Virus record (IMG/VR): IMGVR_UViG_3300033995_000064
Span: 1-29,428 of that record
Length of the DNA stretch: 29,428 nucleotides
Strand: one strand, 5' to 3'
Source: a virus
Shown: one piece after another, positions 4,393-24,369 of the stretch
How the letters are laid out: each line of letters starts with the position of its first letter
How positions within the stretch are numbered: the first letter of the stretch is position 1
Position numbers and translations under genes: made by a program
The notes under the pieces: generated by a model
Told to the model about the DNA's origin: nothing
The model's database searches: none
Seen by the model: only the letters and a program-made list of their open reading frames with translations

Positions 4393-4589
4393 AGCTTTTC
4401 TAATTCGTGTTTTACTTCATTCCAAAAATCTATTATTAATCTATTTTGCCAAGCATTCTCGTGTAAAGCCTCAATTAATTCATCAACAAATAAACCTGCA
4501 CATTTAATTGAATCATCGTATAACTCATCGTGCATTAACACGGATGCAAATTGCTCTACTAAATCTAATGCTTTTTCTTTTGGTGTCAT
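4389..4589 (-). CDS. conserved small phage protein of unknown function, 66 aa
   Basis: The product begins MTPKEKALDLVEQFASVL, contains YDDSIKCAGLFVDELIEAL and ends FWNEVKHELEKL. From memory, this acidic three-helix pattern recurs in Bacteroidetes phages and prophages as a hypothetical protein. I know of no function. ATG 4589 overlaps the end of a possible small frame as ATGA, and its own stop overlaps the next ATG. Confidence 0.72.
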   Translation of the reverse strand: MTPKEKALDLVEQFASVLMHDELYDDSIKCAGLFVDELIEALHENAWQNRLIIDFWNEVKHELEKL

Positions 4590-4720
4590 AGCTCTTGCAT
4601 TTTAATTTCACAAATTCGGTTGTATAAGTCGTGGTTAAATGATGTCCAAAATCGGTTTACCTGATAGTTATTAAATGCCCCACATATAGCCCTCGTCGTT
4701 GTAGGCTTCAACGTAGGCAT
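4586..4720 (-). CDS. possible small overlapping gene, 44 aa
   Basis: An open frame ends at 4586 with an ATGA overlap into the 66-aa gene, and its last 30 residues look protein-like (NNYQVNRFWTSFNHDLYNR). The only usable ATG nearby is at 4720, inside the preceding 102-aa gene, overlapping it by 50 bases. The first 14 residues are Thr/Pro-rich and unconvincing. It may start at a non-ATG codon near 4680, be reached by frameshifting, or not be a gene. Confidence 0.35.
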   Translation of the reverse strand: MPTLKPTTTRAICGAFNNYQVNRFWTSFNHDLYNRICEIKMQEL

Positions 4721-4979
4721 CTTCAAACGTGTTGTTCTCGTAAAGTCTTTCAAGGCATTCGTCGCATTCTCTTGTTTGTTTAATAGTGAGTTTTTCATCG
4801 TAGGTTTTTTTAGTGATTTTATAATAAGCGTAAGCATCGTAAATTTTAATCTCGTATTCGGCAAGGATTTCTCCGTTAGTGTCCGTGTCTCCTTCATCGT
4901 GTAGCGTTACCATCAGGTAAACAAAATTGAGTTCGCTTGGCGAGTAAACATCAAAATCTTTAAGTTCAGGTACAATCAT
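4671..4979 (-). CDS. acidic protein of unknown function, 102 aa
   Basis: The start is ATG 4979 (MIVPELKDFDVYSPSELNF), immediately after the stop of the membrane protein gene. A longer frame from 5084 would lie inside that gene and reads as low-complexity Arg/Thr. The product is acidic (DEGDTDTNGEILAEYE), rich in Tyr, and carries an ECDECLERLYEN helix with a C-x-x-C pair. A lone C-x-x-C does not show metal binding. The C-terminus is NDEGYMWGI. No family is recognised. Confidence 0.7.
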   Translation of the reverse strand: MIVPELKDFDVYSPSELNFVYLMVTLHDEGDTDTNGEILAEYEIKIYDAYAYYKITKKTYDEKLTIKQTRECDECLERLYENNTFEDAYVEAYNDEGYMWGI

Positions 4980-4980
4980 C

Positions 4981-5226
4981 TTATTTGAATTTATCGTTGT
5001 AAACGTGGTTAACATATTTGTCAAAAGACGGCTTGAGTTCGTAGGTCTTCTTTTTGTAGATCTGCGTGTCCGTTGTTTTAGCATCCAAGACTGGGTAGCT
5101 ATTTGTACTCTGCAACCAAATCAAGAATAACACGATTAGAACTGCGATAACTGCACCTGCTAAAGTTTCTTTCTCGTCTTGATTCAATCCCTTGAACCAA
5201 ATTACATACTGATTAATTGTTTTCAT
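4981..5226 (-). CDS. single-pass membrane protein, 81 aa
   Basis: Residues about 22-41 (AGAVIAVLIVLFLIWLQ) form one clear membrane helix after a short basic/acidic N-terminus (MKTINQYVIWFKGLNQDEKE). A 40-residue Lys/Tyr-rich tail follows. No signal peptidase site is evident, so this is probably an inner-membrane protein. It overlaps the upstream gene by 14 bases. As one of the first genes after the early promoter it could act on the host envelope or in superinfection exclusion, but that is speculation from position. Confidence 0.65.
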   Translation of the reverse strand: MKTINQYVIWFKGLNQDEKETLAGAVIAVLIVLFLIWLQSTNSYPVLDAKTTDTQIYKKKTYELKPSFDKYVNHVYNDKFK

Positions 5227-13357: not shown

Positions 13358-13915
13358 TTATACAGTAACGATAGAAGCAGTACCGAAAACGTCTCCTGCG
13401 CCACCTGCAAGACCTGCCTCGTTTGAGCAGTCAAGTAGATTAGCGTAGAGTTTTTCAGTTCCTACGAATGTAAGCGTGTAGCCGTTCAAATCACCCATTG
13501 CAGTACCATTCGATACGTTTGCAGTAGTGATTTCCATTCCGTGTTCTAAACCTGCAAGGAAGAATTGGTTATTGCGGTTCTTAACAACAATGTGAGGACG
13601 TCCGTAAGCCATCAACTTAACGTTTTTGTGCGTTGTAGCATCTTGTTTTTTAAGTGTGACGGTAAGCGTCTGCTCTGCGAATGTAGTGCCATTCTCGCGG
13701 CTTGAGTTATATACTTGGTCAAAAGAGTTTGTTCCTTTGAGTTCGTATTTGTATAGATTAGTAACGTTAGCGATTGTATCGATGGTATCAGTACCAGCTA
13801 CATAAGCAACGTCAGCGGAAGAGAAGTCTCCGTAATTAATAAAGTAGATAGCGTCGATACCACCTACTGCGTCTTTACATACTTCTAAACGACCATTTGC
13901 GACTTCACAAGACAT
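13358..13915 (-). CDS. probable major tail (tube) protein, 185 aa
   Basis: The product starts MSCEVANGRLEVCKDAVGG and shows an alternating beta pattern with LTVTLKKQDATTHKNVKLMA and the pair FFLAGLEHGMEIT and LNGYTLTFVGTEK. This matches a family I associate with major tail proteins of Bacteroidetes siphoviruses and has the usual length for a tube subunit. It follows the major capsid gene but is flanked by strong terminators on both sides, which suits an abundant protein with its own expression level. Head decoration is the alternative. Two Cys near the N-terminus (C3, C13) may be incidental. Confidence 0.62.
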   Translation of the reverse strand: MSCEVANGRLEVCKDAVGGIDAIYFINYGDFSSADVAYVAGTDTIDTIANVTNLYKYELKGTNSFDQVYNSSRENGTTFAEQTLTVTLKKQDATTHKNVKLMAYGRPHIVVKNRNNQFFLAGLEHGMEITTANVSNGTAMGDLNGYTLTFVGTEKLYANLLDCSNEAGLAGGAGDVFGTASIVTV

Positions 13916-22618: not shown

Positions 22619-23154
22619 TATTTCAGTATATTATCAATTTGTTGGTTGAATAGTTTTTCTGCATCCAAGCCGAAAGATGCTACCAGTTCGTCAGGTAGAT
22701 TCCTGTAAGCAGCCTCAAATGGCTTTGTAAAAAACATACTCGGTTTCATTCCTTTGTTGTAGATTCCTCGTGTAATTAGAAACGCAGTAGATTCATAGCT
22801 TAAGAACCTTCCTGATTTTCTATCCTTGAATTGAATCCGTCTTTTTTTAACCCAATTAAAGATGCCTTTTGTCAGTCCACCTTTTTGACCTGTGCCTGAA
22901 CCAAACTTAAACGGAGATTTAGGTGCTTTCGATGAACTTTTTTTACCCTTAACACCCAAGTCTTGATACGCTCCGTAATCGGACATAGAAAACTGAAGCG
23001 AGATAGAGTTAGGCATAGCCTTTACATCCCCTTTGATGGAGTTGTACAAGCTCTTGGATACGTTTTTTCGTTGGTTTGTTAAGTTGCGTTTAGATACGCT
23101 AATAACGTGGTTACGGAAACGCTCTAAAGATTTCTTTACCTCGCTTTGTTCCAT
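22618..23154 (-). CDS. tail completion protein, HK97 gp10-like, 178 aa
   Basis: Gp10-like proteins join tail and connector. Here the helical N-terminus (KKSLERFRNHVISVSKRNLT) is followed by a beta core with MSDYGAYQDLGVKG near 58-71, a Gly/Lys/Ser-rich loop, an LITRGIYNKGMKPSMFFTKP segment (127-146) and a helical end. The YQ(D)LG and ITRGI...PS(M)FF motifs are typical for the family. The neighbour at 23154-23609 is a probable tail terminator, which commonly pairs with it. High pI fits nucleoprotein contacts. Confidence 0.76.
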   Translation of the reverse strand: MEQSEVKKSLERFRNHVISVSKRNLTNQRKNVSKSLYNSIKGDVKAMPNSISLQFSMSDYGAYQDLGVKGKKSSSKAPKSPFKFGSGTGQKGGLTKGIFNWVKKRRIQFKDRKSGRFLSYESTAFLITRGIYNKGMKPSMFFTKPFEAAYRNLPDELVASFGLDAEKLFNQQIDNILK

Positions 23155-23609
23155 CAGCAGATTGTTACCTCGTTAGGGATTAAAACGTCAAATGTCATTG
23201 TCCATCCTGCAAGGTTGTTCTCAAATCTCTCAACAAAAGGCTCGCAGTTAGGGTTACCATCTACTACGACTTGTGAATCCCACATTGTGCCGTGTAGCAT
23301 TTGTGCATAAGCTCGGTTTAGGATTTCTAATTGAGTGTTTAAAACATCTTGTTCATTCGTGTTCCCCCTGAATCCGTCAGTAGTTGCATCTTTGGATATG
23401 TTGACGATGTCCATTGCAATCAGGCTAACATTGAATCTTACTACGTTGGTTTCAAACGATGCGCTATTAATCATAACGTGTACAAGCGGAAAGATAGTCT
23501 GCTTGTTTAAGTCTATCTCGAAGATGTCTCCTTCAGTTACGGTGTTCACCAGTGCATCAGCATTGAAGTGAGTTTGTAGGGCTTGTGTTATTGTGTAGAA
23601 TCCTTTCAT
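23154..23609 (-). CDS. probable tail terminator / head-tail joining protein, 151 aa
   Basis: The product starts MKGFYTITQALQTHFNADAL and continues GDIFEIDLNKQTIFPLVHVM and SLIAMDIVNISKD, then an Asn-rich loop and a LAGWTMTFDVLIPNEVTIC end. This alpha/beta pattern and length suit tail terminators that cap the tube. The key support is the gene order beside the gp10-like protein. ATG 23609 overlaps, as ATGA, the stop of the -1-frame ORF rather than the zero-frame stop, which argues that ribosomes reach it through that frame. Confidence 0.65.
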   Translation of the reverse strand: MKGFYTITQALQTHFNADALVNTVTEGDIFEIDLNKQTIFPLVHVMINSASFETNVVRFNVSLIAMDIVNISKDATTDGFRGNTNEQDVLNTQLEILNRAYAQMLHGTMWDSQVVVDGNPNCEPFVERFENNLAGWTMTFDVLIPNEVTIC

Positions 23610-23881
23610 CGTCTCATTTGTCTTTGGAGTTGTCGTTGTTCAATTTCGTTTTTTTGCTTTTCGAAGGTGAGATATGTGAGACATTTAGTAAGTCGGAGCT
23701 TCGTAATTTCATCGAACTTCGTAACGTCTCCTTTAGCGAGTCCATATATAGACTGATACCATCCCCATCGTTTGGCAAATTGAGTTGTTTCACTAAAGTC
23801 GCTGACAGGTTCTTGTCCTTCTTCATCTGCTTCTCCAAATAATTCAGGGTAGCCGTCAGTAACTCGTTTCCTAAATTGTAA
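23606..23881 (-). CDS. -1-frame extension (91 codons) of the tail-chaperone-like gene, probably made by frameshifting
   Basis: From the slippery T-run, a shift back by one base continues LQFRKRVTDGYPELFGE, an acidic linker, and FAKRWGWYQSIYGLAKGDVT, to the end RQLQRQMRR. The region has a protein-like core (WGWYQSIYGLA, FDEITKLRL, CLTYLTFEKQKNEIEQ) that I recall from phage proteins. The frame has no ATG start: only a TTG at 23905. Its stop forms an ATGA overlap with the next gene. A shifted product would be 163 common residues plus these 91, 254 in total, against 251 for the unshifted one. A homopolymer sequencing error would instead mean a single gene. Confidence 0.68.
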   Translation of the reverse strand, partial: LQFRKRVTDGYPELFGEADEEGQEPVSDFSETTQFAKRWGWYQSIYGLAKGDVTKFDEITKLRLTKCLTYLTFEKQKNEIEQRQLQRQMRR

Positions 23882-24369
23882 AAAAAAACCGATGCTGCTA
23901 TACAAACATCCAAAGGAGCAAACTGCATCAGCTCTTGATGGTCTTTACTTGGTTTGTACTCGTGGAGTTCGTACTTGTCTTTGATTCGTGTTTTGATAGG
24001 TCGGTACATCACCGCCATAGCCTTGTTATAAGTCTCCCAACTCTGCAAGTGATTCTCCAAGTCTACATATTCACCGAAAGAAATCTCCTCAAGGTTAGGT
24101 ATAAATCCAAATTCAACACCACCTATTTTAAATGTCTGCTGAAATGCAGGAGACTGACTGAACAATTCAGTAAAGTGCTGCACCATTTCGTTAAGTGATG
24201 TCATTTTAATCTTGGCTACGTCCGTTAATCGGATGCCGCAGAAAATCTCAATCATCTTTTGAGCGATGAACTCGTCATCATTAGAACCTTTCTGCACGTT
24301 CAAGAAGTCCACATAGTGTTTAAGTGGGATCTCGTTGAGTGATGTAGGTACTTTTACTTGGATTTCCAT
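23614..24369 (-). CDS. tail-assembly-chaperone-like protein, zero-frame product, 251 aa
   Basis: In siphoviruses such proteins hold the tape measure, and a -1 frameshift makes a second form. Residues 1-163 are common: IPLKHYVDFLNVQKGSNDD and QKMIEIFCGIRLTDVAKI, then VEFGFIPNLEEISFGEYVD and KAMAVMYRPIKTRIKDKYE. After VFF at the T-run, the zero frame continues YNLGNELLTATLNYLEKQM and a Lys/Asn/Ser-rich tail (PSKSKKTKLNNDNSKDK). Both C-termini look protein-like, so dual coding of about 270 bases is likely. Assignment as chaperone rests on the frameshift layout and position among tail genes. The start has the AACGTTAT box. Confidence 0.66.
   Translation of the reverse strand: MEIQVKVPTSLNEIPLKHYVDFLNVQKGSNDDEFIAQKMIEIFCGIRLTDVAKIKMTSLNEMVQHFTELFSQSPAFQQTFKIGGVEFGFIPNLEEISFGEYVDLENHLQSWETYNKAMAVMYRPIKTRIKDKYELHEYKPSKDHQELMQFAPLDVCIAASVFFYNLGNELLTATLNYLEKQMKKDKNLSATLVKQLNLPNDGDGISLYMDSLKETLRSSMKLRSSDLLNVSHISPSKSKKTKLNNDNSKDK
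23880..23888 (-). promoter_or_regulatory. T9 slippery site for -1 frameshifting
   Basis: Nine T in a row on the coding strand are read GTT TTT TTT TAC in zero frame (V161 F162 F163 Y164). It contains the heptamer T-TTT-TTT, and a -1 shift gives TTA CAA TTT. The downstream frame stays open for 91 codons. I did not identify a clear stimulatory stem by eye. Confidence 0.7.

Follow-up and report, generated by a model that had tools for sequence, protein, structure and literature searches.

A conserved T9 slip site in a phage tail-chaperone-like gene and two overlapping C-terminal tails under selection

The DNA analysed here (the window, 29,428 bases from an IMG/VR virus record) carries a siphovirus-like gene set that includes, on its minus strand, a 251-codon open reading frame (ORF) whose codons 161-164 read GTT TTT TTT TAC. 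The run of nine T that these codons share at 23888-23880 had been picked out by the initial annotation with coordinates that proved right, and it is the sole A or T run of at least nine within the window. Its surroundings are as follows.

25706-24546, minus strand: terL, followed by a 60-codon ORF and then by the 251-codon ORF
24369-23614 (stop 23616-23614), minus strand: 0-frame ORF of 251 amino acids, the unshifted product, with homologues in more than 160 contigs
23881..24369, minus strand: shared N-terminal region, residues 1-163, a G-like domain (AlphaFold2 pLDDT about 73-93; matches to phrog_32199 in 72/72 and to phrog_166 in 21/72 members)
23880..23888, minus strand: T9 run, with the heptamer T_TTT_TTT at 23887-23881
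23614..23880, minus strand: C-terminal tail of the 0 frame (88 codons plus stop), which stays open up to a common point throughout the window's clade and is under 0-frame selection
23606..23881, minus strand: C-terminal tail of the -1 frame (91 codons plus stop; core WGWY...LAKGD), a T-like domain, conserved in 157 representatives and predicted to be all-helical
23154..23609, minus strand: next gene, 151 amino acids, with its ATG (23609-23607) 4 nt past the 0-frame stop
19163-17238, same strand as the frameshift gene: putative tape-measure gene
17217-16642: XkdF-type protease
14936-13986: possible major capsid gene

Reading on without a shift adds the 88 codons (counted after TTT TTT) that had been claimed for this frame, while a -1 slip leads into 91 sense codons (23881-23609) and a TGA at 23608-23606 that, as also noted initially, overlaps the start of the next gene as ATGA. 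Both products would thus have residues 1-163, the first two thirds, in common and differ in their tails, and the shifted one, at 254 as opposed to 251 amino acids, would be only 3 residues longer, about 270 bases being read in two frames for two tails of nearly equal size. The frameshift gene lies upstream of the putative tape-measure gene, with four ORFs between them. Gene order around it is unusual in that a chaperone-like gene adjoins terL and a tail-tube-like ORF (13358-13915, so named by sequence only) is found close to the capsid gene, a long way downstream and on the other side of the tape-measure gene.

For the unshifted product, AlphaFold2 predicts an ordered N-terminal domain, a helix (residues 153-184) that contains the shift point and, in the 0-frame tail, weaker helices followed by a disordered, lysine-rich end; the -1 tail is modelled as an all-helical domain with a pLDDT of 83. 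All 72 aligned members match phrog_32199, a family of unknown function, and 21 of them match phrog_166 (‘tail protein’; best 4e-4), which P2 gpE also matches at 4e-7. No family member rose above the Pfam cut-off, sequence searches of Pfam, NCBIfam and PDB gave nothing significant for either tail, a profile comparison (hhalign) with P2 E/Mu gp41 was negative and Foldseek found nothing similar to the two models in PDB; against BFVD, it returned only unnamed phage proteins and a weak ‘tail assembly chaperone’ (rank 50, E 0.38). The label of a tail-chaperone-like protein in the initial annotation is plausible, though sequence matches contribute little to it (phrog_166 in 21 of 72 members), and weak profile similarity combined with gene position makes a role as tail chaperone likely.

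Relatives were gathered by protein-based scans of viral contigs, one frame per scan, which yielded more than 300 loci from what is a large family of aquatic phages; removal of near duplicates left 157 representatives in 31 single-linkage clusters at 60% identity. Across these, codon-position variability switches at the T run: upstream of it, frame 0 is most variable at its third codon position; past it, variability at this position collapses and, from about codon 30, it is the second position (the wobble position of the -1 frame) that varies most. Rates of change, which are approximate, were obtained by placing substitutions on trees by parsimony and classing them as silent or not in each frame, with a first set restricted to the 86 sequences open in both frames and a second set based on groups defined by 0-tail length. 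In the 86 sequences, changes altering the -1 product only amount to 0.17 (transitions) and 0.07 (transversions) per site versus 2.06 and 0.92 for doubly silent ones, and the -1 tail is strongly conserved across all 157 representatives. For the 0 frame, substitutions in the window's clade that alter this frame while leaving -1 unchanged run at 0.23 of the rate of doubly silent ones (p=1e-13), and the ratio rises from 0.08 in the first third of the tail to 0.19 in the middle and 0.41 (p=0.003) in the last. A clade with 0-tails of 49-74 codons provides an internal control: here, the 0-frame ratio climbs from 0.44 ahead of the 0 stop to 1.05 (p=1) beyond it, which indicates that the method is calibrated.

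The same picture emerges from codon choice. When the -1 protein was recoded at random with synonymous codons, the 0 frame stayed open as far as observed in fewer than 1 in 400 trials per genome (0/400 for the window), with a median opening of 8 codons. In the window's clade, 292 of 293 leucine codons that stand before A or G in the -1 frame are CTC or CTT, whereas TTA is commonest upstream and TTA/CTA are preferred ahead of C or T. In shorter-tailed relatives, once their 0 frame has ended, 255 of 318 Leu/Ile/Val codons followed by A or G make 0-frame stops (about 75% without the stops themselves), in comparison to 0/630 of the same class before the 0 stop in the window's clade, a zero that is partly a matter of definition although the contrast is not. 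Codon-level conservation, which the initial annotation had seen as decisive should it turn out to concern one frame only, thus shows purifying selection in both, and the two tails encoded by the same stretch of about 270 bases are both maintained by selection.

How such an overlap may have come about is suggested by tail lengths. Among the 157 representatives, the -1 tail (including two slip-site Phe residues) measures 82-94 residues with an SD of 3, and the 0-frame tail 18-103 with an SD of 16. In a tree built from the shared domain together with the -1 tail, 0-tails form a ladder of 18 and 27, then 57, 64, 65, 67-69, 72-84 and 85-90, which depends on rooting the tree with P12024/L164 and takes the outermost relatives (18-27 codons) up to the window's clade (as many as 90). 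Stop-by-stop lengthening up to the junction with the next gene is the simplest reading. There, nearly all members with 0-tails of 88-90 codons have their 0 stop 4 nt before the next ATG and their -1 stop overlapping it, and the following gene starts between -30 and +10 nt relative to the -1 stop in 84 of the 86 representatives with 0-tails of at least 75 codons and in 11 of the 27 with tails below 58. Coupling to the next gene is likely to be part of the benefit of a long 0-tail. It is not the whole reason, since the clades with intermediate tails (49-74 codons) also keep theirs open under selection (0.44), with a 0 stop that falls 55-99 nt short of the next gene.

On this basis, the -1 tail may be seen as the older of the two, a domain under strong constraint that would be the counterpart of T in a lambda-type G/GT pair, and the 0-frame tail as a younger overlapping reading that grew step by step, its stop finally arriving where the -1 tail ends. 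We give an even chance to the fuller version of this scenario, in which the family has caught a de novo domain in stages of its growth: the 0 stop would have moved downstream through -1-coding DNA until two C-terminal domains existed, both full-length and each selected in its own right, between which a programmed shift would switch, with both stops passing ribosomes on to the next gene. A competing explanation, to our minds possible but rather doubtful, denies the 0-frame tail any protein function and sees it kept open only so that unshifted ribosomes avoid an early stop, about 200 nt of untranslated mRNA and an uncoupled next gene. Consistent with this, a gap of exactly 4 nt separates the 0 stop from the next ATG throughout the window's clade, a clade without coupling (0/13) has the shortest 0-tails apart from outgroups (41-57), and amino-acid constraint is lowest at the end of the tail, where it is modest and where the AlphaFold2 model is of low confidence or disordered. 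Yet even this last third evolves below the silent rate, the first third is constrained like ordinary protein, and selection on 0-tails of 49-74 codons operates where the 0 stop is still remote from the next gene. We favour a 0-frame tail that is selected as protein.

What would give access to both tails is a slip site of striking constancy. T9 is present in nearly every complete locus of the more than 300 found; the non-redundant set of 157 has 153 runs of T9 and 4 of T10 with none shorter, so that the length of 8 considered initially as a potential pitfall was never seen and that of 10 only rarely, and a T_TTT_TTN heptamer stands in 0-frame phase in all 157, which represent at least 31 lineages at 60% identity. 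Two isolate genomes, those of Nonlabens phages P12024L and P12024S (28% protein identity), have T9 as well. Upstream in the same genes, Phe is encoded by TTT in 69% of its codons and Val/Leu codons (GTN/CTN) end in T in 37%. A change of the second TTT to TTC would be silent in either frame (Phe in one; TTA/TTG to CTA/CTG, both Leu, in -1), yet none of the 157 representatives has TTC. In contig L193, the T run is absent and A_AAT_TTT is found instead, in the right phase and with the two frames still long. Four further contigs (L217, L286, L305 and L320) have a phase-shifted T run (T_TTT_TTA, T_TTT_TTG or T10 before C) whose codons still allow tandem -1 slippage. In the +1 frame, most relatives meet a stop no more than 4 codons past the run (23888-23866 in the window; ...ACA ATT TAG), so a slip in the opposite direction would end early.

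Programmed -1 ribosomal frameshifting typically operates on an X_XXY_YYZ heptamer, and a stimulatory 3' RNA structure is common but not obligatory. Applied to the window, most ribosomes would probably pass T9 in frame and make the 251-residue protein, while a fraction, with tRNA-Phe in both P and A sites, would slip back by one base on T_TTT_TTT and make the protein of 254 residues; as both stops flank the ATG of the next gene, ribosomes of either frame could be handed on to it. Heptamer phase, together with the L193 replacement, favours such tandem tRNA-Phe slippage. Downstream RNA structure was not detected by z-scores in windows past the slip site (mean z -0.11 to 0.10), and an Rfam scan of the window gave no matches. 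The most likely interpretation is tandem -1 ribosomal slippage that is used like lambda G/GT in tail assembly but exchanges C-termini. Conservation of the slip site, coding in two frames and the places of the stops are shown directly; what we infer is ribosomal rather than transcriptional slippage, a role in tail assembly, translational coupling and a product ratio in favour of the unshifted protein.

Slippage by RNA polymerase is the main rival to this, since nine T is the threshold length reported for it in many bacteria (PMC1088944): a U added within T9 would give a U10 mRNA, normal translation of which into the -1 tail would lead to the same products. That the run is at least nine T in all 157 representatives, when tandem slippage needs seven, that it is never broken by the doubly silent TTC and that no 3' RNA structure is seen would all suit a polymerase. 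Outer T residues, however, are mostly dictated by what the two frames encode, the run is in the phase of a T_TTT_TTN heptamer throughout, and A_AAT_TTT in L193, with its two frames intact, would be used by ribosomes but not by RNA polymerase. Adding to this that tail-gene frameshifts studied to date are ribosomal (PMC5009743), we regard transcriptional slippage as unlikely and retain tandem ribosomal slippage as our preferred mechanism.

Could the -1 tail instead be a separate gene that overlaps the first one and has a start of its own, with no frameshift involved? The initial annotation described the -1 ORF as devoid of an ATG, which holds insofar as no usable ATG exists, albeit with the qualification that the window has a TTG (23905) in this frame, 8 codons upstream of the shift point. 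As a candidate start, TTG 23905 was rejected: it merely reflects the wobble base of a Val-Cys pair, where relatives have ATG, GTG, TTG, CTG or none of these, and in 107 of the 157 representatives the -1 frame contains no ATG, GTG or TTG at all from the preceding stop to tail codon 25. Annotators of P12024 did call a separate ORF, but its start would cost the tail its conserved first quarter, FFL.FR.R included, and the conserved T run would be left unexplained. An independent start therefore strikes us as very improbable. The ORFs in question, P12024L_41 (L159 3028-3195) and its equivalent P12024S_39 in L160, are annotated as hypothetical proteins from an internal ATG and correspond to the C-terminal part of an unannotated -1 frameshift tail of the preceding gene.

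Finally, homopolymers are error-prone in sequencing and assembly, but a true T8 or T10 with a single frame has next to no probability given that independent metagenomes and two isolate genomes share T9 and that both frames are under selection, and conservation of the slip site in 157 representatives and P12024L/S means that the run is neither chance nor an assembly artefact. One contig, L055, does have T10 (near locus position 960), which would break its 0 frame; it is the sole such case among close relatives and probably a homopolymer error itself. In all, it is highly probable that a single start serves two chaperone-like proteins, made via a -1 slip and with swapped C-terminal domains; slip-site conservation and selection on the two frames strongly support the programmed -1 frameshift with exchange of C-termini that had originally been proposed.

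In textbooks, it is tail-chaperone genes that exemplify the addition of a domain by frameshifting, and G/GT chaperones bind tape-measure and tail-tube proteins while being absent from virions. Like lambda G/GT and HK97 gp13/gp14, the window's gene has a single start, a -1 shift on a slippery heptamer, a common N-terminal part and a place upstream of the tape-measure gene. It differs in that lambda has 5 codons of 0 frame past the heptamer and a 139-codon extension beyond the 0 stop, and HK97 at most 16 codons and a 96-codon extension, compared to 88 codons and a swap in the window; D29, whose overlap could be bounded only loosely (at most 73 codons, GC-rich), was left out of this comparison. 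The lambda-type shift occurs near the end of gene G and adds the T region (PMC5009743). The system in the window would work like G/GT without two of its usual features, the C-terminal extension and a gene position directly between major tail protein and tape-measure genes. P2 E/E+E' resembles it in having a T-rich slippery site (TTTTTTG), for which no downstream hairpin is reported (PMC3091744), and in the phrog_166 match that gpE shares with the window's family, but has 6 codons of 0 frame past the site and an extension of about 51 codons.

The nearest cultured relatives, genes 40-41 of Nonlabens phages P12024L/S, carry T9 in the same place and share 28% (N-terminal domain) and 26% (-1 tail) identity; unlike the window, they have a 0-tail of 27 codons counted from the second Phe, a next gene that is 130 nt off and uncoupled, and a frameshift that went unannotated. 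Overlapping frames reached by frameshift are also known from influenza PA-X and potyvirus P3N-PIPO. There, too, the shift exchanges the C-terminal part and the underlying nucleic acid codes in two frames, but viruses and proteins are others and the 0-frame product runs far past the overlap, whereas both frames end within 8 nt of each other in the window. That shifted tail proteins can have the same N-terminus and a different C-terminus is already known (PMC3091744). In the openly accessible literature, no description was found of this family or of a full-tail swap under two-frame selection.

Rather than adding a domain, the shift described here swaps domains across some 88 double-coding codons with both frames selected. 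Because the family keeps intermediate stages (0-tails from 18 to 103 codons), birth and growth of an overlapping coding region become traceable, with the shorter-tailed relatives supplying a control for selection within the same genes. For annotation, it follows as a rule that the -1 tail is missed or miscalled in these phages, P12024L/S being examples. In the early region of the window, two long ORFs of 103 and 137 codons overlap on the same strand at 4586-5084.
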